Part shown: positions 1 through 62,291 of the stretch, in pieces
Layout of the letters: every line of letters starts with the position of its first letter
How positions within the stretch are numbered: position 1 is the first letter of the stretch
NCBI RefSeq assembly: GCF_910592395.1
Contig: NC_088320.1
Coordinates: 14,198,501 to 14,262,500 of the forward strand
Length of the DNA: 64,000 nt
Direction of reading: 5' to 3'
From: Lineus longissimus
Taxonomy: Eukaryota; Nemertea; Pilidiophora; Heteronemertea; Lineidae
Translations under genes and position numbers: made by a program
The notes under the pieces: generated by a model
The model's database searches: none
Seen by the model: only the letters and a program-made list of their open reading frames with translations
Told to the model about the DNA's origin: nothing

Positions 1-128
1 GGATTTCGTGCTATCTTCCCTCAAGATTGTCCATTGTTCCCGACCGAAGCGTGAGCCTAATCCCTCAACCCCAAACAATAGCAAGGAAGTTGTTCAATAG
101 ATCTGCCGACCTCCCTATTATATATATA

Positions 129-2257
129 CAATAAATGCTCAGTTACCTCGGGATCAGCCAATTTTTGCAAACACACAATATGAGGCCTTTATGGGGGAGA
201 GAAAGTTCACCACTTATTTATGGTGACAGCTGTTTCAATAGGTGTTTAAATTAACATGAAGTCAGAACATCATGCTCATTTCGTTTATTCAAGTCAGACC
301 CCTTGGGAGTTCATTGAGTAATAGAATAAAAGTGAATAGGTCGCTCTTGTCTGCATTGGAGTGTATCCTAACACTGAATGAAAAGTCAAAATCAGTCAGC
401 ATTAGACAACTCATTACAACACTATAAAAGACCAAATTTCAACATTGATTGGTGGAATGAGTCTCATGAGCCGAAAAGTCAACACTTTATGACAAATTCA
501 GACTTCTGTTACAAGTCAGTCACTGTCTTCATTGTAATCATGAAACACAATATCCTCTTCCATATCAGACAGTTCATCTTCATCAAGGAGAAGACCTCCT
601 TCCGCCTGAGCATCGGCGTATTGTCCATTTTCACGTGGAATGAGTCCAGCTACTTGGAATCCCCGAATTGCTGCATTGGGACTTACATCAGCCCATGCAT
701 GACTTAGAATTCCTAGAACTGATAGGAGAGGGATTTTGTCACACTGTCCATCTGCATTAGTATGCTGGGTTTTCCATTCCTTCCAGTACTTACGGACCAA
801 GGTTTTAAACCCCCTCATGACGGTTAGGTCTAGAGGCTGGGCGAGAGATGTACATCTGGCAGGGATGTCATCAAGTAAAATACCAGCTTCAACCAGAGGC
901 TGGCAGAATTGTTCGGCCTGATGTGGGCGAAATCTGTCTACCAAAAGCAAAATTTCATTTGGATTAAAGTCTCCAACAAAGGGAAAAAAGATTTCTTCCT
1001 GCCAGTGCTGCAGTGTTCCTGCATTCTCCCACCCAGACCTTGAAGACGTTACCCTTACATTTTCTGGTATGTCATGCAGGGCTCTGATTTCCCTAACAAA
1101 ACCGGGTTCCCTGAAAACGACATGAGCTGGAGCTTTCTCTCCATTTGACCCAATTGTAAGTCCAACCGTACAACCCAGTTTTGGGTTCCCCCTCGATGTC
1201 CGCACATCAATGTTCTTTGACCCCTTTGTTGCAGCAGTATACATTGGCGGAAAATCAAGTTGGGTAAAAGTTTCATTAAAGTTAAAAATAGTGTGGACGT
1301 TATTTTCCTGAACAGTAGTCCGTACCTCCTCTTGAAATCTAGCCACCCTCTCATCAGCATCACGTGGTAATGTGGCAGTATCCTTGGTCTTTCGACGAAA
1401 CGTGATGCACTTTCTGGCCATGAACCTTGACAACAACCTATCACTAGCAACAAAGTTCACTCTTTCAGGGCGCTGGTGCCTCATTTCATCCTGTCTTTCG
1501 ACAGGAAGCTCACCCCACCAATTTTCAAAGGCTACAACAGCATCCTGGCGAAGATCAGACCTGGATACAGGCAGAGCTCTCTGCCTCCTCTCAAGAAATG
1601 ACTGGTGCACGGCATCTTCAACCTCAGGCCATAATCCATCATGATCAATGCGCACCCTTCGACTGTGAGCATTGTGTTCTGCCTGGTCCATGAGGTGGTC
1701 AATGTCCTGAATCCATCCGCGCAAAGTTGAATTGGCCAATCTATGCCTCCTTGCATACTCTGCGACATTCAAAACCTGACCATGTTCAATAGCATGCTGA
1801 CAGTCTAATGCATGCCGTAGACGTGCCTCCACAGGGTAGCCATGGAGTCGCCTAGACGTACCAGGACGATGACCTTCCATATCACCCTCACCATCATTAG
1901 GCATATCCATGCAGACAACCAAACGTACAAACAACACGAAAAGGTGGATAAAAGTTGTAATCATTGTCACTGGTCAGAGGTCTGCGTATTGAATGACTGA
2001 AACCAATTTCACTAAAAAACAAGAAAGGGTTAATTCTTTTTCTCCTACAATAGTATGAAATAGACCCAGGCCTTGGCAAAGGACACGTCTCATTCAAGTC
2101 CTCTTTCAGAAAACCAATCAACCATAGGCCTGTACACTTCTATTCACTAAAAAATCAGTGTCACATTTTACATGAATACCCTCTCTGGGCCCCATTTTAT
2201 ACCAAAAACTAAGTTGATCTGAAGTAGGCCTATCCCGAGGTAACTGAGCATTTACTG
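129..2257 (-). mobile_element. pogo/Tigger-like DNA transposon, left copy
   Basis: A 2129-bp element with terminal inverted repeats of about 25 bp. The inner-facing end reads CAGTAAATGCTCAGTTACC on the reverse strand; the outer end has one mismatch (CAATAAATGC). It is flanked by TA on both sides (127-128 and 2258-2259), the TA duplication expected of the Tc1/mariner/pogo superfamily. It contains one long transposase frame. The whole unit, including its TA flanks, is mirrored in the right arm, so it was inserted before the arms separated. Confidence 0.9.
516..1970 (-). CDS. pogo/Tigger-like transposase (CENP-B/DDE_1 type)
   Basis: 484 residues, uninterrupted. Residues about 45-90 form a helix-turn-helix region of the CENP-B/psq N-terminal type. 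A DDE superfamily endonuclease core follows. The three acidic blocks are recognisable: the first is at N232 in a FNFNET context where the family normally has Asp, the second is D345 in LLLVDRF, and the third is D381 in QPLDLT. The change of the first catalytic Asp to Asn predicts loss of strand cleavage while DNA binding could remain. The first 20 residues are hydrophobic and may not be translated; Met21 is an equally good start. It lies inside TIRs at 129-2257. What is seen is an intact frame; loss of activity is inferred from one residue. Confidence 0.85.
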   Translation of the reverse strand: MTMITTFIHLFVLFVRLVVCMDMPNDGEGDMEGHRPGTSRRLHGYPVEARLRHALDCQHAIEHGQVLNVAEYARRHRLANSTLRGWIQDIDHLMDQAEHNAHSRRVRIDHDGLWPEVEDAVHQSFLERRQRALPVSRSDLRQDAVVAFENWWGELPVERQDEMRHQRPERVNFVASDRLLSRFMARKCITFRRKTKDTATLPRDADERVARFQEEVRTTVQENNVHTIFNFNETFTQLDFPPMYTAATKGSKNIDVRTSRGNPKLGCTVGLTIGSNGEKAPAHVVFREPGFVREIRALHDIPENVRVTSSRSGWENAGTLQHWQEEIFFPFVGDFNPNEILLLVDRFRPHQAEQFCQPLVEAGILLDDIPARCTSLAQPLDLTVMRGFKTLVRKYWKEWKTQHTNADGQCDKIPLLSVLGILSHAWADVSPNAAIRGFQVAGLIPRENGQYADAQAEGGLLLDEDELSDMEEDIVFHDYNEDSD

Positions 2258-2279
2258 TATATATGAATATACTGGACCT

Positions 2280-2408
2280 CTCACCAATAAGATCCCAAGC
2301 CCCACAATACCCGATTTGTACCACCGCCTCGATGGGAAGAGTATAAACAACTGAACCGAGGCGGTGGTAGAAATTGGGTATTGTCGGGCTTGGGATCTCA
2401 TTGGTGAG
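2280..2408. repeat. 129-bp imperfect hairpin (foldback MITE), left
   Basis: Two arms of about 52 bases are inverted copies of each other (CTCACCAATAAGATCCCAAG and its partner ending at 2408) around a loop of about 25 bases. No coding content. It sits directly inside the pogo element and is mirrored at 59820-59948. It is probably a small foldback or MITE-type element; the superfamily is not determined. Confidence 0.75.
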
Positions 2409-2884
2409 TTGCTCCAGTAACTAATCCAACAGAGGGCAGCAGGATTTAACACCTCCTTTGGGTTGAGGATATGGGTCACTGCTGCTTTGTGTGATTATTA
2501 CATAAGCAGACGTGTATAGAAAATCCTCATTCTAAACCATACATTCTGTGTCACCCGAGGTAGAGATTAATTACTACTAGATATACGATGTTTAATATAT
2601 GTATGTATACGCATATATATCATTGTTAATTGTAGCTAGGACTAGGAACATGGTTGATTTTTTAAAATAGTGACTTTGATGAACAGAAATTTTACAAAAA
2701 ATATTTTGTTCTTGGAACGCTTTATGTTCGGCCAATTTTGTTAGAACTTTGACACACTGATCACTAGGTCTATGACAACATGAATATATGAGCAGTTTTT
2801 TCAGTGAAATGTCTCATCTTGCAAAAAAGATGATTTGTAAGCACTCTCTTTGCATTAATCTTCAAAATATACAGTGTTTTTCAA
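2409..2884. other. No gene seen
   Basis: AT-rich sequence with an alternating TA/TG stretch near 2580-2620. No open frame, RNA gene or terminal repeat was recognised. It is mirrored in the right arm around 59344-59819. Confidence 0.6.
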
Positions 2885-3456
2885 AAAAAAGGAAACCGAG
2901 ATTAAGTTGTTAATTTCCTGGACACGGCTAAATATTTTGGAAATTGGCAACCACCATCTATTACCCAATGATGTCCTCTTTCTTATGACACCATTAAATT
3001 CAATTAACTGTCAGAGATGACTGAACACGGAACAGTTCAATCAACCATGGCAGAACTGATCCTCAACCAGACAAACGTGTTGGTAATCAACATTGTCTGC
3101 CCAGTGCAGGGTTTCCTTTTGTTTGGCCTCAAAATTATGCAAACCTTTTGCATGTGTTTCAATTGCACACTCCCTAAAATTTGGAAAGGTTGCTCATTTT
3201 CTCAGACCAGCAAAATGCAGCTTAGAACTAAGCAGCGTGTGTTTGAGGTAAACGAGTGGCTGATGAATGGACTGAAGTCTCCAGCAAGTAGCAGATACAT
3301 TTGGTGCGACCAACCATGAGATTAAATGGTCACCACGGTCCCCTGACCTCACCCCCTGTGATTTTTTTGCGGGGAAATATTGAGAACCAAGACAACAAGT
3401 CGCCTTCACCAGATATCAATGACCTAAGTGCCAGAATCGTCGCTGCATGAAGTTGT
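2885..3456 (+). pseudogene. Tc1/mariner-type transposase relic, left
   Basis: Decayed transposase on the plus strand. At 3327-3380 the translation reads WSPRSPDLTPCDFF, the hallmark block around the second catalytic Asp of insect-type Tc1/mariner (IS630) transposases. After a frameshift, SPDINDLSARIVAA follows at about 3400-3450. Upstream, 3240-3275 gives a degenerate VFEVNEWL segment. Several stops and frameshifts make it non-functional. A TIR candidate may start near 2870 (ACAGTGTTTTTCAAAAA), but the other end was not found. Both arms carry it. Confidence 0.75.
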
Positions 3457-3945
3457 AATATATCCATCACAAATATGAAACTTGTATAATCCACAATAGT
3501 GCGATTATTAGTTAGCTTCTCCATGTAACATGGTACTTTGTATTTCTTGATGTCTTACCACCGCGTATCACATCGCTAGCCAATGACAGATGACAACCAC
3601 TACGGTTCAACTAGGGAAAAATGCATCACTGGGTGGTAGAACTTTTGTCATTGCCTTCTGCAAGTTTACAGTCAGTCGTCTGTTCAAGAACAGTGACTTG
3701 CCCCAGGACACAAAATGGGCCACCCTCTACATTCTGCATTGTACACTGACGTGTGCATCAGAAGATGCAGGTGTCGGTCATACACATAAAGGCAATAGCT
3801 ACATTTCTAATTGGCCATGGTCAAATCAAATGCTCGTAGGCAATATCCGTATGGTGGGTAACTTAATGGACCTTCTCCAAGAGAACCAATTCATCAATTA
3901 ATCTCTGCTCACCAAAGCAGACAAAGGTAAATGACATGACTGTGA
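3457..3945. other. Anonymous segment with a 103-codon open frame
   Basis: A frame at 3590-3901 (plus) is also open in the right arm (58326-58637, minus) with few changes. I do not recognise the product and see no splice or initiation context to support it. Its last bases (3929-3945) are the target site of the Penelope-like insertion. Confidence 0.35.
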
Positions 3946-4026
3946 ATAGTAGAAGTAAAACTGGATACCGTCACTGTAGTTTACAACAATGTCCATCGGT
4001 CCCTATTGTTGGGCTGTTGTGTTGCT

Positions 4027-4069
4027 CCACCGACGCGCGTTTCTGCCCCTCTAGGCTTCATCAGGGTGG
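4027..4069 (-). ncRNA. Hammerhead ribozyme motif, copy 1
   Basis: On the minus strand: stem I CCACC pairs with GGTGG, the core is CTGATGA, stem II pairs GCCT with GGGC around AGAG, then GAAA, a very short stem III made of the self-complementary ACGCGCGT, and cleavage triplet GTC. The tiny palindromic stem III suggests activity as a dimer. There is an A-A mismatch at the base of stem II. Confidence 0.75.
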
Positions 4070-4368
4070 CTGGGGTTCACTAGCATCTGTCTAGTTCGAA
4101 GTTCACAGTTTGAATGACATCATAACTCAGGGGTGGTTTTTCAATGACGTTGTGACGTTATAGACTCTGTTGCAACTCTGTTGTTGAAACATTCTGTTGT
4201 AGTCAAGCAGGTGGGCTGTCCAAATGGCACATGTTGAGAAGTACAGGATCAACCGATGATACACACGGACCAGACAATAAAATCAGAATAGTAGAAGTAA
4301 AACTGGATACCGTCACTGTAGTTTACAACAATGTCCATCGGTCCTTATTGTTGGGCTGTTGTGTTGCT

Positions 4369-4411
4369 CCACCGACGCGCGTTTCTGCCCCTCTAGGCTT
4401 CATCAGGGTGG
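4369..4411 (-). ncRNA. Hammerhead ribozyme motif, copy 2
   Basis: The same 43-nt motif as copy 1, with the same core bases and the same strand, about 342 bases away. Copies 1 and 2 are therefore tandem direct repeats whose transcript could self-cleave into unit-length pieces. Confidence 0.75.
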
Positions 4412-4553
4412 CTGGGTTGACTACAACAGAATGTTTCAACAACAGAGTCGCAACAAAGTCTATAACGTCACAACGTCATTGAGAAACCACCCCTGAGTCA
4501 TGATGTCATTCAAACTGTGAACTTCGAACAAGACAGATGCAAGTCAACCCCAG

Positions 4554-4596
4554 CCACCCTGATGAAGCCTAGAGGGGCAGAAACGCGCGTCGGTGG
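4554..4596 (+). ncRNA. Hammerhead ribozyme motif, copy 3 (inverted)
   Basis: Stem I CCACC 4554-4558 and GGTGG 4592-4596; CTGATGA 4559-4565; GAAA 4580-4583; cleavage triplet GTC 4589-4591. Orientation is opposite to copies 1 and 2, because this block is the inverted terminal repeat of the element. Confidence 0.75.
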
Positions 4597-4692
4597 AGCA
4601 ACACAACAGCCCAACAATAGGGACCGATGGACATTGTTGTAAACTACAGTGACGGTATCCAGTTTTACTTCTACTAAATGACATGACTGTGA

Positions 4693-6235
4693 CCAACAGA
4701 GCATTTAAAAGCCCTCATGAAATGATCAACTTATGTTCACAAGTGGTTTATTGCTGGCCGTTCTATTTTGTGTCCACCCCCAATCGCACCAAGGAAAAGT
4801 ATAAGAAAATCCACTTTTTGGTTGAATTTATGCTCAAAATGACAAAATTCAATGACATTTATGATCAAAATCGGTAATACAAACCTCGTACCATACACCT
4901 GGGTCTTTGTTTGGAATAATATCAGGTTCTTACTTAGGACTTCAGCACTTTACAAATCACACAACATTACCTTGATAACAGCGCTGATTTTTTTTTTAAA
5001 TCCCCATAATATGCTATAATCAACCATACCAATGGAATTTTTCTTTCAAAAGATAATTCCAACTGTGTCAAATTTGAGTAGGTAAAACGTATGTAAACCA
5101 ACATGCTAAGTGACCTTCCTTTTTTACCCGGGAGATAAAAATCTCCAACAACTACAACTGAGGCTTCTGTTGTTCCAGCGGCAACGACGTCTAACAGCAG
5201 TTGCACATATTGCTGCATGTGCCCTCATGAAATGTCTTTTTGAATTCCGCCATTGTTTTGATAGATTTGGAGAAAAAAATGCAATGGAACTCCCTTCAAT
5301 TTACCAAGAACATTGTAAAAGACGCCCAAACATTTGTTTGCCAGTCTACCGTTCTTTCAGAGTGAGGACATCCAATCCAAACAGAAGCAAACTCGGCGTT
5401 TGCTGATAATATTTGCAAACAAATGCTGGGAGAACTTTGCAAGCGTAGACCAGCCTTAATGTGGCAAAACAACCTTCCAAACAAGGCGTCGATTTGAGAT
5501 GAGAATAATTTGCAACAAATGGTGATGCCAACGATAACACGACATTCTCTCTCAATCCAGAGAAGGTGCTCTTAAATTTTTGACATCTCAGGATTGAGAA
5601 ACAACCTGCAACCCTTTCAATCACTTCTGCGACTTGTAGCTCCTAGTTGTTACATTGGATAGTTTAAACATTTTCGTATAGCAGCCCTGGGGTTAAGCTG
5701 TTCTATAACGGACCGCTGCTACCAACGATAAACCATTGTCACTATACCCGAGTAATGGCTTCTTTGGTTATAAAACTTAGTCTCGAAGATTATAACGAGT
5801 GTTACATTTGTCATCGTAGTGTTGAACAATTAAAATCCTCCTCAAATGATAATACGAGGACAATGATTAGAGGACTTGACCTTGGACGATCATGGTGATT
5901 TTCGAACTGTTAAGCAATATTCACATGAGAAACTGATTCAAACAGTAAACTTTTAGAGTTAATGGATTTCTTCCCTTGTCAGGTATATAACTGTATCTTC
6001 GGCTTTTAGTGGTTGTTATTTATTCGATTCGACTGCGAGTAGAACAATATGTCCTACGAGCACACTGTTCGCATAACAGGACTTATCTGAACTGAATTGC
6101 TACCTAGCTGATGAACAAATCAGAGCTAACTGATAGACACTGTGGGAAACGCCTTATGCCCGAGTTTCATTGATCTAAGACCGCTCTACTATCATGTATA
6201 AGTTTACCGACTTTATATCGTATCTTAATATTCAA
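4693..6235. other. Anonymous region with a possible relic frame at 5110-5460
   Basis: The strand and frame starting near 5170 (QRQRRLTAVAHIAACALM) is open in both arms. The left copy has an 11-base insertion near 5390 that shifts it; the right copy (57528-57806, minus) runs longer. The arginine-rich, alanine-rich start resembles an ORF from a DNA transposon, but I cannot assign it. The rest (5640-6235) shows no coding signal. Confidence 0.35.
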
Positions 6236-6411
6236 GTCAAACCGGGCAGGCTTAATTCTCTATATTGACCATTGCTATTTAGAGGTCCCCAATATTTCAT
6301 ATTTTCTGGGTGATCTTAACAGGTTCGTCAGTATTTTCATCTACTCTGCAAATAAAGGGACGAAGGTTTAGACAAACCCTGTCGAAGGCGTTCAAATGTG
6401 ACCAGAAATGA
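6236..6411 (+). pseudogene. Old GPCR relic (3' end only), left
   Basis: The sequence aligns base by base with the last part of the GPCR genes downstream, from the TM7 approach through the C-terminal tail. Examples are TTTTCATCTACT for the FFIYC block and a degenerate RRFRQALGKAF region ending in TGA at 6409-6411. The frame is broken. It is a fourth, much older member of the local GPCR family. In the right arm the same relic is split by a MITE. Confidence 0.7.
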
Positions 6412-7879
6412 TATATGGCGTGAAATTTCATAAAATACTCCTTTTTCTGACCATTAGAATACGCGTATAATTATAGAAGCCTGTTTTCCCCGGATATTCT
6501 ATCCTTGGATTTTTCATACGTTAACACCGGCATCAGGATAGCCAAACATCGTTTAAAAAGCATGTGCTGACAAGATAAATATGTATGATTGCGACTACTA
6601 TTCCTGGTCGCAATGTGTTTCTAGACAAAATCAATGCTTTTAGAAAGTGTACGTCGACTGCGCATGCGGAATCTTGAAAATCAATTATTTATATATAAAG
6701 GTTTTGACTTCGTGAGGTGTACATTGTAAAAACTCTTCCTAATGTGCCTATTGGTATTAAAAACATTGAAGAAATAAGAAATATGTGCTTACTTCTCGCA
6801 TGTGAATAATGACCAGAGGCATTGCATTTGGCGTGTGGGTTGATCACAGTGATGTATGTACCGTTTAGCAATATACACACAAGAACTACCTCCGGAAGTA
6901 CGCTCAAACATTAAATACCGATATCATGTTCCGTGTTACCGAAACAGAATACAACATCGATAGCAAAGTTATTTCTCCAGTTGCAAGGTGGATATTTGTT
7001 TTCAAAGGTACGCATCTAGCTAGTGTGATTAAATCGAAACCTCAACAGTTTTGTAGAAATATATGTTATCTATGCCACTCATTTCGTGTCCCATTGACCA
7101 TGTTGACTGACAGGGTGACGAAGAGCGTTAAGCTGCGTTTCTATCGATATTCAGTGGTTCTCTTCAGTGGTAGTCCGATTGCTAAAAGGAGTTCGAGTTC
7201 ACCATAATGGAGGTGTTGACGTCGACCATTATCATCAGATCAGAGTGGATATTGTCAAGTAATTTCAGGTGATTCAGGGACAGACTCTTTGGAAACCGAT
7301 GTGTGGGAATTACGGAGAGTTTTGTTTGAACTTTCTCACAGGAATGGAAAATTGTCCAACTGAATGAAAAGCGAATAGAGGGCTAAGAGAACTTCGGTAT
7401 AAGTTAGTGGTGGTGGTTTAACGCGCAGTTTGCAATGATAATCAACATATTGATGAAATTGATTCCTTTGGGGTTTGTGTTCTTTAATCACTCCTGTTGG
7501 TCGGCAAGATATATGACTGATATGTTGTCAGAAAGCCATAATAAAAATGTCCTCCACATGAAAACCAGGTATTTCATCCAGCATATTACAGTTTGGATAA
7601 TCAAGTCAACATGGTCAAGTCTTTCTCATTCAACAAATGATTCAACTAATTCTAATTTAACAAAATCAACCATAAAATTTGATTATGACGTTACCTCGAC
7701 ACGTGTTTTTAATATACAGCAATGACGTGCAGACTAGTGGATTCTGCTAGATTTGATGTATAAACTTGAGCTTCCTTATGCAGGAGTGCGAAATGGTGGG
7801 AACTTCAGTTAAGGCTAGTAGAATTTTTACATATTATTGTTATAATTTTCTCGTAGATGTTTAACAGCTACGAGCTACG
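6412..7879 (+). promoter_or_regulatory. Shared upstream block of GPCR A, left
   Basis: From about 6720 to 7879 the sequence is closely similar to the blocks upstream of GPCR B (10320-11430) and, in part, C (28776-29790 minus), so it was duplicated with the genes. It probably contains the promoter and 5' untranslated region. A pyrimidine-rich tract ending in CGTAG at 7852-7856 is a plausible splice acceptor just before the coding region. A 96-codon frame at 7435-7725 is open in several copies but is not clearly a gene. Confidence 0.45.
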
Positions 7880-8914
7880 ATGGTGACAAAAAACGGAACT
7901 ATTCCTTTCACCACATCGATAGAGCGTGGACGATGTTTGTATCATATATATCCCTTGACAGGTTACTATCATTTGGTGGTTTTCACCGTTAATGTAACAT
8001 TAACGTTCATAATGGCAATAATTGGTTTACCAGCAAATGTACTTGCGATTATTGGCATAGGATATGAGCGGTCTTACACATCAACTTCTGTGCTGCTACA
8101 AGGTTTAGCCGCGACAGACAGTCTGGTCTTAGTTTCGGTAGTTTTTGGTGTGTTATTGGAGGACTTGTACAGGTACACAGGTTTCTGGTTCGAGTATATT
8201 TTGTTTCATGCGCAAGCAATGCGTTATCTTAACACACTGGAGTTCTTTTCAAAGACAGCATCTATCTATATCACTGTTTGCGTTGCCACGGAGCGATTCA
8301 TTGCTGTCTGCAGACCTCTGCGGGCGGCAGCTATATGCACGAAGAAGAATGCCTACATTTTACTTTTCGCAATTTGTTTAGGGTCTTTCTTGTATCGAAT
8401 TCCTTTGATCTTCTTATACGAGTTGACATTTCAATATGACCCTTGCTCACGAATGATCCTGCCCGTGTGGGACACGAGTGATTTGTCCTATAACTATTAT
8501 TACGACATCATCTACATTAGAAGCCTATATTTCATTTTCAGTTCTTCGATACCAATAATAATTATGACATTTTTCACTGGCTTGATATTATCTGGCTTAA
8601 AGCAAGCGACCTCTGCACATCTCATCAAAACTGATACACATCGAGCCGAACAAATGAAGATAGTTACGTACAGGGTTATCACAGTGGCGGTAATATTCAT
8701 AGTACTTGAAGTACCGGGTGGGATTACCCAAATACTTGGACTAATTCAAACATATTCAAGTTTCGATATTCATCCTGATATATATTTTGCTGTCATCATT
8801 ATTTCATACTTTCTCAGCAATTTGAACAGTTTTGTCAATTTTTTCATCTACTGTGCAACGGGACGACGGTTCAGACAAGCCTTGGGAAAGGCATTCAAAT
8901 GTAACCAGAACTGA
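7880..8914 (+). CDS. Rhodopsin-class GPCR, FMRFamide-receptor-like (paralogue A, left)
   Basis: 344 residues, single coding exon, predicted plasma-membrane peptide receptor. Seven hydrophobic segments lie near residues 33-60, 66-92, 115-140, 157-178, 208-238, 262-288 and 300-325. TM1 has PAN (N53) and TM2 has LAATD (D80). The TM3 end is ERF (138-140) in place of DRY, followed by IAVCRPL. TM7 has NFFIY (320-324) in place of NPxxY, then the RRFRQAL helix 8. The N-terminus has an NGT glycosylation site at residue 5. The conserved Cys at the start of TM3 is missing, as in FMRFamide-receptor relatives. The ligand cannot be read from sequence. The right-arm partner differs at about eight residues. 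Confidence 0.85.
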   Translation: MVTKNGTIPFTTSIERGRCLYHIYPLTGYYHLVVFTVNVTLTFIMAIIGLPANVLAIIGIGYERSYTSTSVLLQGLAATDSLVLVSVVFGVLLEDLYRYTGFWFEYILFHAQAMRYLNTLEFFSKTASIYITVCVATERFIAVCRPLRAAAICTKKNAYILLFAICLGSFLYRIPLIFLYELTFQYDPCSRMILPVWDTSDLSYNYYYDIIYIRSLYFIFSSSIPIIIMTFFTGLILSGLKQATSAHLIKTDTHRAEQMKIVTYRVITVAVIFIVLEVPGGITQILGLIQTYSSFDIHPDIYFAVIIISYFLSNLNSFVNFFIYCATGRRFRQALGKAFKCNQN

Positions 8915-9545
8915 TTGATATTGGAGTAGAATGCCAGAAGTTATGCTTTTCTCTCACAATTTAGCCCTTGTATATGGCATCAGAACACCTGGAACAATAT
9001 CAATATTATATACCATTATCAATTACAATTTCCGGGCTTTAAAAAAAACCCGTCATAACATCACCGTGAAGCGTCACGGTGTCCGTCCCAGTCTTTAGAT
9101 TCTCTCTGTAAGAACTAAATGGTAACCATATTATCTATGGCCTTGAAAGATGCGGTAGAACAAACAATTTTCGCGTCATTAAATTTGCGCTAATGCCGGT
9201 CGATGGACATATTCGCGGAATAATATTTTCACCAGACAAGAATATTTTTCTCATTGAAATAAAAATCATCAATTGCGCCCAAGAGCTGCTTCCAGTGAAT
9301 ATGTGTCAACAGGTTTCAATGTATAGAGTAATTAAGCCGATATTACAAAAGATGAGCATTAATCTAGGCCAAAATTGAGGAGGTGTGGAATTTGTGTTTG
9401 TTAGCTGTAATTGTCTACGTGATAATTGCAAGTGGTATTCATTGACTTATTTGATAAATCCTCCTAAAAGGAGAAGTATAAATTGAATTCATCAACGACA
9501 CAGATAATGCACAAAAAAATAATACATAATGCACATGATACAATG
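8915..9545. other. 3' flank of GPCR A, left
   Basis: Shares blocks with the 3' flanks of B and C, including a stretch around 9190-9370 that is open in several copies (starting MPVDGHIRG). There is a perfect 8-bp stem with a 4-base loop at about 9062-9082 (CACCGTGA AGCG TCACGGTG). No separate gene is supported. Confidence 0.45.
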
Positions 9546-13870: not shown

Positions 13871-14216
13871 TTCACTTACCTTCTCCTTTTCCGCATTTGT
13901 TTAACCACAGCCACTACAGATACATTTAAGTGCAGAGAGGGGGGAAAGTCAGTGGCCAGTGTCTCTTTCCCGCAACACCACTCATAGCCTCGGCATATTT
14001 CATTATTGTTTTGTGGTAGAAGATTTGTGTTCAAACTAATAATCTTTCTTATCGCTTCTTTTTTAGTTTTTCTGTTTAGGTTATTTTCCATTTTAATACA
14101 AGATTCTTAAATATTCTTAAATGCTAAATAAATAGAGAATCCCATGCAGAATCCTACAGTGAAAGAAGTTTCAAAAGGATGGTATCTGAGAGACTTATTG
14201 TAACCCTTAAATCAGT

Positions 14217-19330: not shown

Positions 19331-19332
19331 TC

Positions 19333-43625: not shown

Positions 43626-43692
43626 GTATTTCAGCACCATGAATGATTGAAACTGTTTATGAAACAGGATACATAGGACCACAGCCGATGAC

Positions 43693-53027: not shown

Positions 53028-53657
53028 ATTGTATCATGTGCATTATGTATTATTTTTTTGTGTATTATCTGTGTCGTTGATGAATTCAATTTATACTTCT
53101 CCTTTTAGGAGGATTTATCAAATAAGTCAATGAATACCACTTGCAATTATCACGTAGACAATTACAGCTAACAAACACAAATTCCACACCTCCTCAATTT
53201 TGGCCTAGATTAATGCTCATCTTTTGTAATATCGGCTGAATTACTCTATACATTGAAACCTGTTGACACATATTCACTGGAAGCAGCTCTTGGGCGCAAT
53301 TGATGATTTTTATTTCAATGAGAAAAATATTCTTGTCTGGTGAAAATATTATTCCGCAAATATGTCCATCGACCGGCATTAGCGCAAATTTAATGACGCG
53401 AAAATTGTTTGTTCTACCGCATCTTTCAAGGCCATAGATAATATGGTTTCCATTTAGTTCTTACAGAGAGAATCTAAAGACTGGGACGGACACCGTGAGG
53501 CTTCACGGTGATGTTATGACGGGTTTTTTTTAAAGCCCGGAAATTGTAATTGATAATGGTATATAATATTGATATTGTTCCAGGTGTTCTGATGCCATAT
53601 ACAAGGGCTAAATTGTGAGAGAAAAGCATAACTTCTGACATTCTACTCCAATATCAA
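53028..53657. other. 3' flank of GPCR A, right
   Basis: Mirror of 8915-9545. The small CACGGTGA hairpin is weakened here by one change (near 53490). Confidence 0.4.
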
Positions 53658-54692
53658 TCAGTTCTGGTTACATTTGAATGCCTTTCCCAAGGCTTGTCTA
53701 AACCGTCGTCCCGTTGCACAGTAGATGAAAAAATTGACAAAACTGTTCAAATTGCTGAGAAAGTATGAAATAATGATGACAGCAAAATAGATATCAGGAT
53801 GAATATCGAAACTTGAATATGTTTGAATTAGTCCAAGTATTTGGGTAATCCCACCCGGTACTTCAAGTACTATGAATATTACCGCCACTGTGATAACCCT
53901 GTACGTAACTATCTTCATTTGTTCGGCTCGATGTGTATCAGTTTTGATGAGATGTGCAGAGGTCGCTTGCTTTAAGCCAGATAATATCAAGCCAGTGAAA
54001 AATGTCATAATTATTATTGGTATCGAAGAACTGAAAATGAAATATAGGCTTCTAATGTAGATGATGTCGTAATAATAGTTATAGGACAAATCACTCATGT
54101 CCCACACGGGCACGATCATTCGTGAGCAAGGGTCATATTGAAATGTCAACTCGTATAAGAAGATCAAAGGAATTCGATACAAGAAAGCCCCTAAACAAAT
54201 TGCGAAAAGTAAAATGCAGGCATTCTTCTTCGTGCATATAGCTGCCGCCCGCAGAGGTCTGCAGACAGCAATGAATCGCTCCGTGGCAACGCAAACAGTG
54301 ATATAGATAGATGCTGTCTTTGAAAAGAACTCCAGTGTGTTAAGATAACGCATTGCTTGCGCATGAAACAAAATATACTCGAACCAGAAACCTGTGTAAG
54401 TGTACAAGTCCTCCAATAACACACCAAATACTACCGAAACTAAGACCAGACTGTCTGTCGCGGCTAAACCTTGTAGCAGCACAGAAGTTGATGTGTAAGG
54501 CCGCTCATATCCTATGCCAATAATCGCAAGTACATTTGCTGGTAAACCAATTATTGCCATTATGAACGTTAATGTTACATTAACGGTGAAAACCACCAAA
54601 TGATAGTAACCAGTCAAGGGATATATAGGATGCAAACATCGTCCACGCTCTATCGATGTGGTGAAAGGAATAGTTCCGTTTTTTGTCACCAT
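53658..54692 (-). CDS. FMRFamide-receptor-like GPCR (paralogue A, right)
   Basis: 344 residues, complete, with the same landmarks as the left copy. Differences include RCLHPIYP for RCLYHIYP, GYERP for GYERS, DLYTYTG for DLYRYTG, NACIL for NAYIL, GAFLY for GSFLY and MIVPVWDM for MILPVWDT. Several of these (ERP, GAF, WDM) match paralogues B or C, which suggests past exchange or that the left copy is the derived one. Confidence 0.85.
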   Translation of the reverse strand: MVTKNGTIPFTTSIERGRCLHPIYPLTGYYHLVVFTVNVTLTFIMAIIGLPANVLAIIGIGYERPYTSTSVLLQGLAATDSLVLVSVVFGVLLEDLYTYTGFWFEYILFHAQAMRYLNTLEFFSKTASIYITVCVATERFIAVCRPLRAAAICTKKNACILLFAICLGAFLYRIPLIFLYELTFQYDPCSRMIVPVWDMSDLSYNYYYDIIYIRSLYFIFSSSIPIIIMTFFTGLILSGLKQATSAHLIKTDTHRAEQMKIVTYRVITVAVIFIVLEVPGGITQILGLIQTYSSFDIHPDIYFAVIIISYFLSNLNSFVNFFIYCATGRRFRQALGKAFKCNQN

Positions 54693-56171
54693 CGTAGCTC
54701 GTAGCTGTTAAACATCTACGAGAAAATTATAACAATAATATGTAAAAATTCTACTAGCCTTAACTGAAGTTCCCACCATTTCGCACTCCTGCATAAGGAA
54801 GCTCAAGTTTATACATCAAATCTAGCAGAATCCACTAGTCTGCACGTCATTGCTGTATATTAAAAACACGTGTCGAGGTAACGTCATAATCAAATTTTAT
54901 GGTTGATTTTGTTAAATTTGAATTTGCTGAATCATTTGTTGAATGTGAAAGACTTGACCATGTTGACTTGATTATCAAAACTGTAATATGTTGGATGAAA
55001 TACCTGGTTTTCATGCGGAGGACATTTTTATTTTGGCCTTGTGACAACATATCAGTCATATATCTTGCCGACAAACAGAAGTCATTAAAGAACACACACC
55101 CCAAAGGAATCGATTTCATCAATGTGTTGATTATCATCGGAAACGGCGCGTTAAACTACCACCACTAACTTATACCGAATTTCTCTTTAGCCCTCAATTA
55201 GCTTTTCATTCAGTTGGACAATTTTCCATTCCTGTGAGACAGTTCGAACAAAACTCTCCGTAATTCCCACACATCGGTTTCCAAAGAGTCTGTCCCTAAA
55301 TCACCTGAAATTACTTGACAATATCCACTCTGATCTGATGATAATGGTCGACGTCAACACCTCCATGATGGTGAACTCGAACTCCTTTTAGCAATCGGAC
55401 TACCACTGTAGAGAACCACTGAATATCGATAGAAACGCAGCTTAACGCTCTTCGTCACCCTGTCAGTCAGCATGGTCAATGGGACACGAAATGAGAACAG
55501 TGGCATAGAGAACATATATTTCAACAAAACTGTTAAGGTTTCGATTTAATCACACTAGCTAGATTCGTACCTTTGAAAACAAATATCTACCTTGCAACTG
55601 GAGAAATAACTTTGCTATCGATGTTGTATTCTGTTTCGGTGACACGGAATATCGGTGATATCGGTATTTAATATTTGAGCGTACTTCCGGAGGTAGTTCT
55701 TGTGTGTATATTGCTAAACGGTACATACATCACTGTGATCAACCCACACGCCAAATGCAATGCCTCTGGTCATTATTCACATGCGAGAAGTAAGCACACA
55801 TTTCTTATTTCTTCAATGTTTTTAATACCAATAGGCACATTAGGAAGAGTTTTTTTCAATGTACACCTCACGAAGTCAAAACCTTTATATATAAATAATT
55901 GATTTTCAAGATTCCGCATGCGCAGTCGACGTACACTTTCTAAAAGCATTGATTTTGTCCAGAAACACATTGCGACCAGGAATAGTAGCCGCAATCATAC
56001 ATATTTATCTTGTCAGCACATGCTTTTTAAACGATGTTTGGCTATCCTGATGCCGGTGTTAACGTATGAAAAATCCAAGGATAGAATATCCGGGGAAAAC
56101 AGGTTTCTATAATTATACGCTTATTCTAATGGTCAGAAAAAGGAGTATTTTATGAAATTTCACGCCATATA
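54693..56171 (-). promoter_or_regulatory. Upstream block of GPCR A, right
   Basis: Mirror of 6412-7879, with the 96-codon frame at 54847-55137. It is almost identical to the B block at 51139-51960 in the same arm. Confidence 0.45.
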
Positions 56172-56741
56172 TCATTTCTGGTCACATTTGAACGCCTTCG
56201 ACAGGATTTGTCTAAACCTTCGTCCCTTTATTTGCAGAGTAGATGAAAATACTGACGAACCTGTTATGCAAGTATCAATTCGTGTCTTGTACCCCCCTCC
56301 TCAAGGGTACGACACCTTATCACCCTATAACAATATCTTAAGGCTCAAGCATCACCCTTTTTTCACCAATGCTACTTTTTCTTTCGTCAAGACATCACCA
56401 TCAACAATATATCAGTTATCACCGTCATATAAAGTAACCGAACTAATTTTACTGGGTAAGGCTGTATGTTCGACAAGACATCGACACATTAGCATCCTTA
56501 TTCTTTCCAGCTTCGCCAAATTTTCACTAAAGGAAAAATAAATACTACTCAAGCATCGGCAAAGATTAGTGGTGATAGCTTAACTACCCTTGGGTGATAA
56601 GGGTGATAAGGTGTCGTACCCTTGAGGAGGGGGGTACAAGAAACGAATTGATACTTGCATTAAGATCACCCAGAAAATACGAAATATTGGGGACCTCTAA
56701 ATAGCAATGGTCAATATCGAGAATTAAGCCTGCCCGGTTTG
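56172..56741 (-). pseudogene. Old GPCR relic, right, split by a MITE
   Basis: Mirror of 6236-6411, interrupted by the 393-bp element at 56267-56659. Confidence 0.65.
56267..56659. mobile_element. 393-bp MITE with TTA duplication (right arm only)
   Basis: TIRs of about 60 bases beginning TGCAAGTATCAATTCG, flanked by TTA at 56264-56266 and 56660-56662. The left arm has one TTA at the empty site (in CCTGTTAAGATC on the matching strand). The TTA duplication fits PIF/Harbinger. The interior (56310-56590) has no transposase. Confidence 0.85.
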
Positions 56742-58771
56742 ACTTGAATATTAAGATACGATATAAAGTCGGTTAACTTATTCATACATCATACAGTGCA
56801 GCCGTCTTTTAGATCGATGAAACTCGGGCATAAGGCGTTTCTCACAGTGTCTATCAGTTAGCTCTGATTTGTTCATCAGCTAGGTAGCAATTCAGTTCAG
56901 ATAAGTCCTGTTATGCAAACAGCGTGCTCGTAGGACATATTTTTCTACTACCAATCGAATCGAATAAATAACCACCACTAAAAGCCAAAGATACAGTTAT
57001 ATACCTGACAACGGAAGAAATCGATTTACTGTAAAAGTTTACTGTTTGAATCAGTTTCTCATGTGAATATTGCTTAACAGTTCGAAAATCACCATGATCG
57101 TCCAAGGTCAAGTCCTCTAATCATTGTTCTCGTATTATCATTTGAGGAGGGTTTTAATTGTTCAAGACTACGATGACAAATGTAACGCTCGTTATAATCA
57201 TCGAGACTAAGTTTTATAAGCAAAGAAGCCATTACTCGGGTAAAGTGACAATGGTTTATCGATGGTAGCAGCGGTCCGTTATAGAACGGCTTAACACCAG
57301 GGCTGCTATACGAAAATGTTTAAATTAACGAATGTTATAACTAGGAGCTGCAAGTCGCGGAAGTGACTTAAAGTGTTGCATGTTGTTTCTCGATTATTAG
57401 ATGTCGCAAATGTAAGAGCACCTTCTCTGGATTGAGAGAGAATGTCGTGTTAACGTTGGCATCACCATTTGTTGCAAATTATTCTCATCTCAAATCGACG
57501 CCTTGTTTGGAAGGTTGTTTTGCCACATTAAGGCTGGTCTACGCTTGCAAAGTTCTCCCAGCATTTGTTTGCAAATATTATCAGCAAGCTTCTGTTTGGA
57601 TTGGATGTCCTCACTCTGAAAGAACGGTAGACTGGCAAACAAATGTTTGGGCGTCTTTTACAATGTTTTTGGTAAATTGAAGGGAGTTCCATTGCATTTC
57701 TTTCTCCAAATCTATCAAAACAATGGCGGAATTCAAAAAGACATTTCATGAGGGCACATGCAGCAATATGTGCAACTGCTGTTAGACGTCGTTGCCGCTG
57801 GAACAACTAAAGCCTCGCTTGTCGTTGTTGGAGTTTTTGATCTCCCGGGTAAAAAAGGAAGGTCACTTAGCATGTTGGTTTATATACGTTTTACCAACTC
57901 AAATTTGACACAGTTGGAATTATCTTTTGAAAGAAAATTCCATTGGTATGGTTGATTATATCATATTATGGGCATTTAAAAAAAATTCAGCGCTGTTATC
58001 AAGGTGATGTTGTGTGATTTGTAAAGTGCTGAAGTCCTAAGTAAGAACCTGATATTATTCCAAACAAAGACCCAGGTGTATGGTACGAAGTTTTCATTAC
58101 CGATTTTGATCATAAATGTCATTGAATTTTGTCATTTTAAGCATAAATTCAACCAAAAAGTGGATTTTCTTATACTTTTCCTTGGTGCGATTGGGGGTGG
58201 ACACAAAATAGAACGGCCAACAATAAACCACTTGTGAACATAAGTTGATCATTTCATGAGGGCTTTTAAATGCTTTGTTGATCACAGTCATGTCATTTAC
58301 CTTTCTCTGCTTTGGTGAGCAGAGATTAATTGATGAATTGGTTCTCTTGGAGAAGGTCCATTAAGTTACACACCATACGGATATTGCCTACGAGCATTTG
58401 ATTTGACCATGGCCAATTAGAAATGTAGCTATTGCCTTTATGTGTATGACCGACACCTGCATCTTCTGATGCACACGTCAGTGTACAATTCAGGATGTAG
58501 AGGGTGGCCCATTTTGTGTCCTGGGGCAAGTCACTGTTCTTGAACAGACGACTGACTGTAAATTTGCAGAAGGCAATGACAAAAGTTCTACCACCCAGTG
58601 ATGCATTTTTCCCCAGTTGAACCGTAGTGGTTGTCATCTGTCATTGGCTAGCGATGTGATACGCGGTGGTAAGACATCAAGAAATACAAAGTACCATGTT
58701 ACATGGAGAAGCTAACTAATAATCGCACTATTGTGGATTATACAAGTTTCATATTTGTGATGGATATATTA
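56742..58771. other. Anonymous region, right
   Basis: Mirror of 3457-6235 without the Penelope-like element. The empty target site is near 58290-58310. The unrecognised frames at 57528-57806 and 58326-58637 (both minus) are open. Confidence 0.4.
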
Positions 58772-59343
58772 CAACTTCATGCAGCGACGATTCTGGCACT
58801 TAGGTCATTGATATCTGGTGAAGGCCACTTGTTATCTTGGTTCTCAATATTTCCCCGCAAAAAAATCACAGGGGGTGAGGTCAGGGGACCGTGGTGACCA
58901 TTTAATCTCATGGTTGGTCGCACCAAATGCATCTGCTACTTGCTGGAGACTTCAGTCCATTCGTCAGCCACTCGTTTACCTCAAACACACGCTGCTTAGT
59001 TCTAAGCTGCATTTTGCTGGTCTGAGAAAATGAGCAACCTTTCCAAATTTTAAGGAGTGTGCAATTGAAACACATGCAAAAGGTTTGCATAATTTTGAGG
59101 CCAAACAAAAGGAAACCCTGCACTGGGCAGACAATGTTGATTACCAACACGTTTGTCTGGTTGAGGATCAGTTCTGCCATGGTTGATTGAACTGTTTCGT
59201 GTTCAGTCATCTCTGACAGTTAATTGAATTTAATGGTGTCATAAGAAAGAGGACATCATTGGGTAATAGATGGTGGTTGCCAATTTCCAAAATATTTAGC
59301 CGTGTCCAGGAAATTAACAACTTAATCTCGGTTTCCTTTTTTT
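58772..59343 (-). pseudogene. Tc1/mariner-type transposase relic, right
   Basis: Mirror of 2885-3456, with the same SPRSPDLTPCDFF block (near 58850-58900) and the same frameshifts. Confidence 0.7.
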
Positions 59344-59819
59344 TTGAAAAACACTGTATATTTTGAAGATTAATGCAAAGAGAGTGCTTACAAATCATCT
59401 TTTTTGCAAGATGAGACATTTCACTGAAAAAACTGCTCATATATTCATGTTGTCATAGACCTAGTGATCAGTGTGTCAAAGTTCTAACAAAATTGGCCGA
59501 ACATAAAGCGTTCCAAGAACTAAATATTTTTTGTAAAATTTCTGTTCATCAAAGTCACTATTTTAAAAAATCAACCATGTTCCTAGTCCTAGCTACAATT
59601 AACAATGATATATATGCGTATACATGTATATATTAAACATCGTATATCTAGTAGTAATTAATCTCTACCTCGGGTGACACAGAATGTATGGTTTAGAATG
59701 AGGATTTTCTATACACGTCTGCTTATGTAATAATCACACAAAGCAGCAGTGACCCATATCCTCAACCCAAAGGAGGTGTTAAATCCTGCTGCCCTCTGTT
59801 GGATTAGTTACTGGAGCAA

Positions 59820-59948
59820 CTCACCAATGAGATCCCAAGCCCGACAATACCCAATTTCTACCACCGCCTCGGTTCAGTTGTTTATACTCTTCCCATCGAG
59901 GCGGTGGTACAAATCGGGTATTGTGGGGCTTGGGATCTTATTGGTGAG
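59820..59948. repeat. 129-bp imperfect hairpin, right
   Basis: Mirror of 2280-2408; the stem is preserved. Confidence 0.75.
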
Positions 59949-59970
59949 AGGTCCAGTATATTCATATATA

Positions 59971-62099
59971 CAGTAAATGCTCAGTTACCTCGGGATAGGC
60001 CTACTTCAGATCAACTTAGTTTTTGGTATAAAATGGGGCCCAGAGAGGGTATTCATGTAAAATGTGACACTGATTTTTTAGTGAATAGAAGTGTACAGGC
60101 CTATGGTTGATTGGTTTTCTGAAAGAGGACTTGAATGAGACGTGTCCTTTGCCAAGGCCTGGGTCTATTTCATACTATTGTAGGAGAAAAAGAATTAACC
60201 CTTTCTTGTTTTTTAGTGAAATTGGTTTCAGTCATTCAATACGCAGACCTCTGACCAGTGACAATGATTACAACTTTTATCCACCTTTTCGTGTTGTTTG
60301 TACGTTTGGTTGTCTGCATGGATATGCCTAATGATGGTGAGGGTGATATGGAAGGTCATCGTCCTGGTACGTCTAGGCGACTCCATGGCTACCCTGTGGA
60401 GGCACGTCTACGGCATGCATTAGACTGTCAGCATGCTATTGAACATGGTCAGGTTTTGAATGTCGCAGAGTATGCAAGGAGGCATAGATTGGCCAATTCA
60501 ACTTTGCGCGGATGGATTCAGGACATTGACCACCTCATGGACCAGGCAGAACACAATGCTCACAGTCGAAGGGTGCGCATTGATCATGATGGATTATGGC
60601 CTGAGGTTGAAGATGCCGTGCACCAGTCATTTCTTGAGAGGAGGCAGAGAGCTCTGCCTGTATCCAGGTCTGATCTTCGCCAGGATGCTGTTGTAGCCTT
60701 TGAAAATTGGTGGGGTGAGCTTCCTGTCGAAAGACAGGATGAAATGAGGCACCAGCGCCCTGAAAGAGTGAACTTTGTTGCTAGTGATAGGTGGTTGTCA
60801 AGGTTCATGGCCAGAAAGTGCATCACGTTTCGTCGAAAGACCAAGGATACTGCCACATTACCACGTGATGCTGAGGAGAGGGTGGCTAGATTTCAAGAGG
60901 AGGTACGGACTACTGTTCAGGAAAATAACGTCCACACTATTTTTAACTTTAATGAAACTTTTACCCAACTTGATTTTCCGCCAATGTATACTGCTGCAAC
61001 AAAGGGGTCAAAGAACATTGATGTGCGGACATCGAGGGGGAACCCAAAACTGGGTTGTACGGTTGGACTTACAATTGGGTCAAATGGAGAGAAAGCTCCA
61101 GCTCATGTCGTTTTCAGGGAACCCGGTTTTGTTAGGGAAATCAGAGCCCTGCATGACATACCAGAAAATGTAAGGGTAACGTCTTCAAGGTCTGGGTGGG
61201 AGAATGCAGGAACACTGCAGCACTGGCAGGAAGAAATTTTTTTTCCCTTTGTTGGAGACTTTAATCCAAATGAAATTTTGCTTTTGGTAGACAGATTTCG
61301 CCCACATCAGGCCGAACAATTCTGCCAGCCTCTGGTTGAAGCTGGTATTTTACTTGATGACATCCCTGCCAGATGTACATCTCTCGCCCAGCCTCTAGAC
61401 CTAACCGTCATGAGGGGGTTTAAAACCTTGGTCCGTAAGTACTGGAAGGAATGGAAAACCCAGCATACTAATGCAGATGGACAGTGTGACAAAATCCCTC
61501 TCCTATCAGTTCTAGGAATTCTAAGTCATGCATGGGCTGATGTAAGTCCCAATGCAGCAATTCGGGGATTCCAAGTAGCTGGACTCATTCCACGTGAAAA
61601 TGGACAATACGCCGATGCTCAGGCGGAAGGAGGTCTTCTCCTTGATGAAGATGAACTGTCTGATATGGAAGAGGATATTGTGTTTCATGATTACAATGAA
61701 GACAGTGACTGACTTGTAACAGAAGTCTGAATTTGTCATAAAGTGTTGACTTTTCGGCTCATGAGACTCATTCCACCAATCAATGTTGAAATTTGGTCTT
61801 TTATAGTGTTGTAATGAGTTGTCTAATGCTGACTGATTTTGACTTTTCATTCAGTGTTAGGATACACTCCAATGCAGACAAGAGCGACCTATTCACTTTT
61901 ATTCTATTACTCAATGAACTCCCAAGGGGTCTGACTTGAATAAACGAAATGAGCATGATGTTCTGACTTCATGTTAATTTAAACACCTATTGAAACAGCT
62001 GTCACCATAAATAAGTGGTCAACTTTCTCTCCCCCATAAAGGCCTCATATTATGTGTTTGCAAAAATTGGCTGATCCCGAGGTAACTGAGCATTTACTG
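59971..62099 (+). mobile_element. pogo/Tigger-like DNA transposon, right copy
   Basis: 2129 bp, the same length as the left copy. Both ends are perfect here (CAGTAAATGCTCAGTTACC) with TA flanks at 59969-59970 and 62100-62101. Confidence 0.9.
60258..61712 (+). CDS. pogo/Tigger-like transposase, right copy
   Basis: 484 residues, intact. Only two residue changes from the left copy were seen: DRWLSRF for DRLLSRF and DAEE for DADE. It has the same Asn at the first catalytic position (N232) and D345 and D381 elsewhere. With so few changes over 1.45 kb, this part of the arms is much less diverged than the GPCR region. Confidence 0.85.
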   Translation: MTMITTFIHLFVLFVRLVVCMDMPNDGEGDMEGHRPGTSRRLHGYPVEARLRHALDCQHAIEHGQVLNVAEYARRHRLANSTLRGWIQDIDHLMDQAEHNAHSRRVRIDHDGLWPEVEDAVHQSFLERRQRALPVSRSDLRQDAVVAFENWWGELPVERQDEMRHQRPERVNFVASDRWLSRFMARKCITFRRKTKDTATLPRDAEERVARFQEEVRTTVQENNVHTIFNFNETFTQLDFPPMYTAATKGSKNIDVRTSRGNPKLGCTVGLTIGSNGEKAPAHVVFREPGFVREIRALHDIPENVRVTSSRSGWENAGTLQHWQEEIFFPFVGDFNPNEILLLVDRFRPHQAEQFCQPLVEAGILLDDIPARCTSLAQPLDLTVMRGFKTLVRKYWKEWKTQHTNADGQCDKIPLLSVLGILSHAWADVSPNAAIRGFQVAGLIPRENGQYADAQAEGGLLLDEDELSDMEEDIVFHDYNEDSD

Positions 62100-62291
62100 T
62101 ATATATATAATAGGGAGGTCGGCAGATCTATGGAACAACTTCCTTGCTATTGGTTGGGGTTGAGGGATTAGGCTCACGCTTCGGTCGGGAACAATGGACA
62201 ATCTTGAGGGAAGATAGCACGAAATCCGAATCAAGGGTTTTAGAAACATAATGTACTCTTAAACATGTTGAAATAATTGAAAGCAAAAACA

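Follow-up and report, generated by a model that had tools for sequence, protein, structure and literature searches.

A palindrome with a one-base spacer in a receptor gene array of Lineus longissimus is probably one junction of a reciprocal inversion

How does a chromosome come to carry two inverted arms of more than 28 kb that face each other across a single base? The question is raised by a stretch of chromosome 13 of the nemertean Lineus longissimus (C13:14198501-14262500; this whole stretch of 64,000 nucleotides is the window), in which an initial annotation had reported a palindrome and had argued that a spacerless structure of such size needs an explanation, a view with which we agree. 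The palindrome lies in a tandem array of 28.5-kb units that contain genes for FMRFamide-receptor-like G protein-coupled receptors (GPCRs), its arms are two of these units, and its centre lies within a transposon that encodes a THAP domain (the THAP element). A reciprocal inversion of about 62 kb within the GPCR array, with breaks at the same spot of two copies of the THAP element, probably gave rise to the palindrome as one of its two junctions.

The window is situated at 14.2 Mb on the 16.85-Mb scaffold of chromosome 13. The genome has been described as 391 Mb in 32 scaffolds (version 1.1; chromosome 13, 16.85 Mb), obtained from 79-fold PacBio coverage with high-fidelity (HiFi) libraries sheared to 12-20 kb, assembled by Hifiasm with a contig N50 of 10 Mb, and scaffolded by Hi-C (PMC8593623). 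The assembly screened here comprises 391,118,348 bases in 30 contigs. Flanking DNA of 100 kb was added to each side of the window, and the 264 kb thus examined contain no N. Coordinates are numbered from window base 1, negative numbers being to the left of the window.

The centre of the palindrome is a single unpaired base, G 32791, on each side of which 528 bases pair without mismatch; when the window is compared by script with its own reverse complement, paired coordinates sum to 65582, which bears out the odd palindrome with a one-base spacer first noticed at this position. Of the 892 positions from 31900 up to the centre, 889 are paired (the exceptions being 31905, 32262 and the centre itself), whereas 14 neighbouring registers match at only about 23-27%. 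There are only two exact palindromes with arms of at least 14 bases in the 264 kb: this one, with arms of 528, and another with arms of 27. The left arm is mirror-homologous all the way to base 1. The right-hand limit proposed originally, 62227, is not an end, being merely the partner of window base 1: the mirror homology continues outside the window to -30/62258. Beyond this point it extends, though with gaps, across the next unit as far as about -26007, which pairs with the second unit on the right near 68.7 kb. Bases 62259-64000 repeat the sequence from 33777 onward in direct order, with a different length of a minisatellite; since the right-arm sequence restarts from 62259, the palindrome is part of an array.

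Every landmark had been said to recur in mirror order. Mirror homology does hold across the left arm; the arms are not nearly identical, as in seven aligned blocks there are 424 mismatches in 26,194 bases (1.62%; 204 transitions and 220 transversions), with a divergence per kb of 0 to 6.6%. Nor are all landmarks shared. A long interspersed nuclear element (LINE) at about 16.2-20.75 kb and 747 bp at 3946-4692 are found only in the left arm; the right arm has four pieces of its own (35595-35695, 101 bp; 43693-46269, 2.58 kb; 48825-48905, 81 bp; 56264-56659, 396 bp); and the minisatellite has 78 copies in the left arm and 6 in the right.

The centre of the palindrome consists of two 5′ halves of the 1.4-kb THAP element, head to head. 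Copy a (31802..32790, plus strand) begins with the terminal inverted repeat TTAAAGGCCATATATC at 31802, contains a miniature inverted-repeat transposable element (MITE) and is broken at the palindrome centre; copy b (32792..33780, minus strand), with the MITE in mirror position at 32802-32967, differs from copy a at 3 of 989 positions. The THAP-domain frame (Pfam PF05485, E 1.3e-13) is at 32107..32469 on the plus strand, with its mirror at 33113-33475 on the minus strand, and both 5′ halves adjoin the same TTAA at the head of the array unit, 33777. The MITE (166 bp, 32615..32780, plus strand, GGGCCGAATTTAC...GTAAATTCGGCCC) has terminal inverted repeats and a target duplication, AAT, lies 10 bases from the centre, and is followed by AATGTGTAGG up to the centre. 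Folded as DNA, 32613-32781 gives one full-length hairpin of -48.9 kcal/mol, whereas shuffled sequences average -15.9 kcal/mol (z -11.9). The MITE site is empty in four other THAP copies (a full one at 144.8 kb, a 3′-shortened one at -97 kb, and L002 and L004 on other contigs), which read uninterrupted across the MITE site (...ACATAATGTGTAGGCCCTATTGGGGCC...) and through the position of the break (AATGTGTAGGCCCTATTGGGG). A fifth copy, L003, departs from the family at AATGTGT and is also without the MITE. Genome-wide, 40 places were scored of 853 candidates, and in all 39 apart from the window's own, the match either stops or starts at the MITE site.

The junction at the centre (J1, 32784..32798) reads GTGTAGG-G-CCTACAC, and contains an inverted microhomology, TAGG/CCTA, with one base between. 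The odd palindrome TAGGCCCTA, which belongs to the THAP element itself, pairs with itself at 8 of its 9 positions and has its mirror point at J1 (TAGGGCCTA on the plus strand).

The 3′ halves of the two THAP copies are found about 60 kb to the left (J2), at -33603..-32846 (minus strand) and -26757..-26003 (plus strand), face to face. In the junction sequences, element positions (numbered from 144784) run to 631/632 in the 5′ halves and resume at 634 in the 3′ halves, so that about a base or two are missing at the break, and one 3′ half has a changed base at its edge. Both 3′ halves adjoin the unit TTAA at position 39536, and the near flanks on this side differ by 0.35% (in two pieces, of 289 bp and of 865 bp, the latter with the element half in it). 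All that separates the 3′ halves is a head-to-tail pair of a 3.05-kb element whose terminal repeats are 64 bp long. The array, the two junctions, the matching halves and the flanks that they share can be followed directly in the assembled sequence.

Two further observations concern these elements. The dimer of the 3.05-kb DNA transposon (-32850..-26753) is exactly centred in the second junction, and its copies are 99.67% alike; the 218-aa frame of the element has a match to HTH_Tnp_4 below the Pfam cut-off. The two ends of the THAP element lie at different TTAA sites, one at unit position 39536 and one at the head of the next unit (33777), and the part of the unit between these sites is absent, as if the insertion of the element had been accompanied by a deletion.

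The array was delineated by painting the 264 kb with unit R1, the right arm (33777..62258, 28,482 bp, plus strand), which begins at the TTAA where the THAP element sits. From left to right, the order is: Lf, in pieces (-51.5 to -33.6 kb, the last piece forward); L2 (reverse, interrupted); L1, the left arm (reverse; 1..31801, minus strand, and on to -30 outside the window); the THAP centre; R1, R2 and part of R3 (forward); R4, an inverted piece at 100,502-117,490; R5 (forward); and R6 (divergent). R2 starts within the window (62259..64000, plus strand) at a head-to-tail junction that reads GTACTC followed by TTAAACATG, and the head-to-tail junctions L1-L2, R1-R2, R2-R3 and R5-R6 all carry GTACTC followed by TTAAACAT.

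From these coordinates, an ancestral order can be reasoned in which all units would have been forward: Lf (to 39536), THAP a, L1, L2 (to 39536), THAP b, R1, R2. THAP a and THAP b would be copies of one insertion, multiplied by the tandem duplication of a block, and both would already have contained the same hairpin MITE. Both copies would then have been broken at TAGGCCCTA, just past the MITE, and the intervening segment (62.6 kb, from about -29.8 kb to 32.791 kb) rejoined in reverse, thereby placing the 5′ halves head to head, as the centre with its one-base spacer, and the 3′ halves face to face, with the 3.05-kb pair now between them. Undoing one inversion gives a consistent forward order at both junctions, and the palindrome is therefore read as the junction of a reciprocal inversion: taken together, the two junctions contain the 5′ and the 3′ part of both broken sites, and do so in inverted order. 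As the inversion explains where all four halves of the two broken elements lie, no duplication is needed, and the arms, in this model, are two tandem paralogs turned to face each other.

As two random breaks would rarely hit the same base of two copies, a shared fragile site is proposed. We infer a single inversion event, in which the hairpin MITE, through cruciform formation or hairpin cleavage, would have made the same spot fragile in both copies, the near self-complementary TAGGCCCTA would have aligned the ends, and the TAGG/CCTA microhomology would have served to join them. The segments that are confined, within the 264 kb, to the two blocks all differ by about 0.3% (5′ halves 3/989; 3′ halves 3/755; a DDE_1 transposon, described below, 6/2129), a value that we read as the age of the tandem duplication that would have produced THAP a and THAP b, the inversion being younger.

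The arms behave like paralogs within the array. In like-for-like comparisons, in which only columns present in all three rows were counted, divergences were 1.71% for L1-R1, 1.81% for L1-R2 and 1.75% for R1-R2 (22,656 columns); 0.90% for L1-R1, 1.02% for L1-R3 and 0.84% for R1-R3 (9,142 columns); 1.78% for L1-R1, 2.18% for L1-R4 and 1.83% for R1-R4 (16,187 columns); and 2.40% for L1-R1, 2.48% for L1-R5 and 1.12% for R1-R5 (11,108 columns). L2 differs from R2 by 2.77%, from R1 by 2.74% and from L1 by 2.63% (over about 3.7-3.8 kb). Over 24 one-kb bins with at least two candidates each, the unit nearest to R1 is L1 in 6, R2 in 6, R5 in 6 and another in 6; for L1, R1 is nearest in 11 bins, R2 in 8 and some other unit in 5. 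With R3, R4 or R5, respectively, as the fourth row, informative quartet sites that join L1 with R1 number 6, 10 and 31, those that join L1 with R2 number 12, 19 and 87, and those of the third grouping number 0, 9 and 25.

The signal changes along the arms. At 54.8-58.9 kb, 76 sites support L1 with R2 and none support otherwise; at 38.8-40.8 kb (with R3), L1 with R2 is favoured by 9 to 0; and at 49.8-51.8 kb, L1 with R5 is favoured by 19 to 0. Near the centre, at 33.8-38.8 kb, there are 0 sites for L1 with R1 and 2 for L1 with R2 when R3 is used, and 3 for L1 with R1 and 1 for L1 with R4 when R4 is used. R1 and R5 differ at only 21 of 5,924 bases at 52777-58700, even though neighbouring parts differ more, which is a sign of recent exchange between units of the array. 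The arms are thus read as mosaics that would have been shaped by exchange between units, and not as simple copies of each other. With an inversion younger than the tandem duplication, a perfect centre could lie between arms that are 1.6% apart: the arms would either have differed already when they were turned face to face or have diverged through exchange with other units. Separately, at 50777-51777 and the L1 mirror of this stretch, beside a GPCR gene, L1 is 5-6% from R1, R2, R4 and R5, and R1 is 1.2-1.7% from R2, R4 and R5; this divergence of L1 is possibly due to conversion from another GPCR copy.

Several findings weigh against the inversion as described. No other unit is nearest to L1 as frequently as R1 (11 of 24 bins), and two stretches join L1 with R1: 40.8-43.2 kb, by 6 sites to 1, and 58.9-59.6 kb, by 15 sites to 2. 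L1 and R1 diverge by more than 0.3% over most of their length, for which later exchange with other units would have to be invoked. The 4-base inverted microhomology is by itself weak evidence: in the 264 kb, odd palindromes with arms of at least 4 bases occur 1,370 times and TAGGCCCTA occurs 16 times. At J2, the 3.05-kb pair are direct repeats, which the inversion does not account for, and beyond the insertion in L2 that we take to be a Maverick, Lf and L2 are about 3% apart, so that the duplicated block is not uniform. The 3.05-kb elements may have arrived after the inversion; the direct pair and the jump in divergence between Lf and L2 show that other events took place, and neither observation contradicts the inversion model.

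The initial annotation had offered a recent inverted duplication, two haplotypes joined by assembly, or a dimeric inverted molecule; that the structure is genomic has been upheld in part, and each of the three fits less well than a reciprocal inversion. A duplication could have arisen in vivo by fold-back or sister-chromatid fusion, if a break in the THAP element to the left of R1 had folded at TAGGCCCTA and R1 had been copied as an inverted L1. This is unlikely, for all that L1 and R1 are the only units within the 264 kb to share the DDE_1 and THAP-plus-MITE insertions (at about 0.3%) and that R1 is so often nearest to L1. Inverted microhomology is present at the junction (TAGG/CCTA, of a kind common enough to occur at 1,370 sites), and its four bases fall within the 2-8 bp described for 13 human inverted-duplication junctions; the spacers at those human junctions are 766-70,466 bp (PMC3907307), and junctions formed in yeast by origin-dependent inverted-repeat amplification (ODIRA) are 40-80 bp (PMC10766186), as against one base here. 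Fold-back would not lead one to expect a pair of 3′ halves about 60 kb away, broken at the same base and with identical flanks, for which the reciprocal inversion accounts; these halves speak against the copying of R1 into L1 by fold-back or microhomology fusion. Furthermore, the arms differ from each other about as much as from other units, a comparison that exchange between units can blur; the LINE of L1 is present in R2 and not in R1, and informative sites group L1 more often with R2 (L1+R1 to L1+R2 being 6:12, 10:19 and 31:87). Two other routes to an inversion find no support. Ectopic recombination that yields an inversion requires inverted copies; once the inversion is undone, both THAP copies have the same orientation and the same flanks. 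Alternative transposition by the 3.05-kb element is at odds with a J1 that is without this element and a J2 at which the pair is direct.

It is improbable that the palindrome is an artefact of assembly, with two haplotypes joined tail to tail at the THAP element. The 1.6% divergence of the arms and their differences in insertions could mimic heterozygosity, and palindromes have been reported in draft genomes, for example that of Adineta vaga, and artificial ones can arise by erroneous scaffolding (PMC7953838). Yet the outer flanks lack mirror-order homology (2,776 of 25,001 bases match between the right and left outer flanks in mirror order, scattered, and 5,085 in direct order, against 19,733 of 25,000 for the arms as control), R2 is not a better match to L2 than R1 or L1 is, the paired 3′ halves of the reciprocal junction are not predicted, and the assembly is from HiFi reads with no N in the 264 kb. 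More improbable still is a centre made by one fold-back sequencing read: such reads are about 0.55-0.6% of genomic reads from Oxford Nanopore sequencing and virtually absent from PacBio HiFi, three PacBio samples being covered in all (PMC12870357), and the arms of a single molecule must be alike, whereas here 5 of 1,150 bases differ and the copy number of the minisatellite, which starts about 1.1 kb from the centre, is 78 in one arm against 6 in its partner. A combination of the two, i.e., haplotypes joined through a fold-back read, had been suggested by the 1.6% divergence and is countered by the flanks, the array and the reciprocal 3′ halves. Nothing observed here points to a dimeric inverted molecule, the window being inside a 16.85-Mb chromosome scaffold. 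As far as these sequence comparisons go, the case against an artefact of assembly or of reads is an argument and not a proof.

Other mobile elements are found in the arms and near them. The LINE insertion (16216..20753, ends approximate, minus strand) has exo-endo-phosphatase and reverse transcriptase frames and is present in L1 and R2, and absent from R1 and R4. The 2.58-kb insertion in R1 (43693..46269, plus strand) is flanked by repeated (C)CGATGAC and is absent from L1, R2 and R4. The DDE_1 transposon, presumably a pogo/Tigger-like element, is at 126..2254 in L1 (minus strand; terminal inverted repeat CAGTAAATGC, TA target) and at 59974..62102 in R1 (plus strand), where it has 6 mismatches in 2,129 bases relative to the L1 copy; the corresponding sites in R2 and R5 are empty. 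L1 also has a DDE_Tnp_4 transposase, presumably Harbinger-like, at 23772..24677 (minus strand), for which R1 has a shorter frame at 40092-40706. Protein searches with the DDE_1 and reverse transcriptase frames (5 hits, and the best 120 of 6,616) pointed to no host species for the window. Just to the left of the window, unit L2 is interrupted by a 19,265-bp element (-25601..-6337; C13:14172900-14192164). It has terminal inverted repeats of 250-262 bp and a 6-bp target duplication, and matches to DNA_pol_B_2 and to rve with a chromo domain in 2 of 8 frames scanned; in all respects it agrees with the definition of a Maverick/Polinton, i.e., a length of 15-20 kb, long terminal inverted repeats, a 6-bp target duplication, a type B polymerase and an rve integrase.

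The array itself shows further rearrangement. The 17-bp minisatellite (unit GGACATGTATGGTTCCT) varies from 6 to 78 copies across units, with 78 in L1 (30348..31676, plus strand), 6 in R1 (33906-34011) and 47 in R2 (62388-63190), and the lists of open reading frames show long open frames through the two larger arrays. At the joins of R4, alignments overlap by 7 and 5 bp at unit positions that do not match on the two sides, so that the boundaries of R4 look like a template-switch rearrangement. At the left end of the cluster there is a 5-kb direct tandem repeat (-49469..-39489, 99.0%) with two further GPCR genes. Scans for tRNA genes and Rfam families gave no hits.

The 264 kb contain 19 GPCR frames that are 250 aa or longer, and 16 of these have 344-346 aa. 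Each arm has three: in L1, G1 (7880..8914, plus strand, FMRFamide receptor-like, 344 aa), G2 (11431..12471, plus strand, 346 aa) and G3 (27816..28775, minus strand, a 319-aa frame without 101 bp near its start that are present in R1); in R1, in mirror order, G3 (35607..36641, plus strand, 344 aa), G2 (50098..51138, minus strand, 346 aa) and G1 (53658..54692, minus strand, 344 aa). Among the 10 protein matches listed for a GPCR of the window, which do not include its own protein, the best is an FMRFamide receptor-like protein of Lineus longissimus (61%). When one GPCR was compared with solved structures, the best 60 of 154 matches were other receptors of this class, mostly opioid receptors; a tblastn comparison of one GPCR with a phage collection gave no match. 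The median ratio of nonsynonymous to synonymous divergence (dN/dS) is 0.40 among the 16 full-length genes (99 of 120 pairs, those with dS >0.05), which points to constraint on the GPCR genes; for the two L1-R1 pairs compared, the ratio is 0.56 and 0.75, with few changes behind both values.

Thus, a palindrome in an animal reference chromosome whose arms exceed 28 kb and whose centre is a single base can be accounted for with no duplication at all: when part of a tandem array is inverted, paralogs that already exist become the arms of a palindrome. Since each end of the event can be followed at single-base resolution, the formation and survival of such palindromes become testable, and a palindrome whose arms diverge by a few per cent need not be a haplotype artefact. 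More speculatively, and with considerable doubt, the hairpin MITE together with the neighbouring 9-base near-palindrome might act as a repeated fragile site, through which direct repeats would recombine in the manner of inverted ones. Tandem gene arrays with such elements could in that case flip whole units, and giant palindromes with almost no spacer could result and persist in a germline. If true, this would be contrary to the common expectation that palindromes of this kind do not last long. A narrow search of the open PubMed Central literature found no report of this palindrome or of MITE-hairpin inversions.

With respect to known systems, an analogy can be drawn with the Galileo inversions of Drosophila buzzatii, where both breakpoints lie in copies of one transposon and halves of both are found at each junction (PMC2775673). 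Ectopic recombination requires inverted copies; the THAP copies here were direct and broke at one base position, so that the junctions are 5′-5′ and 3′-3′ palindromes rather than recombinant whole elements. Alternative (reversed-ends) transposition of maize Ac/fAc resembles the present case in that direct elements can give inversions, and foreign transposons are found at one junction here; the maize mechanism leaves elements and matching target duplications at both breakpoints, a signature not found here (PMC8225341). Short inverted microhomology at a palindromic junction is shared with fold-back inverted duplications and ODIRA (PMC3907307, PMC10766186), which duplicate or triplicate sequence and have longer spacers, whereas here no duplication is needed and the spacer is one base. 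Finally, large inverted arms that carry genes are a feature of the gene-converting palindromes of the Y and other sex chromosomes (PMC7953838, PMC6790999). In contrast to those palindromes, the arms here seem to have been exchanged with several units of the array and are not clearly each other's nearest relatives. The spacers of Y palindromes, moreover, are far longer than one base.

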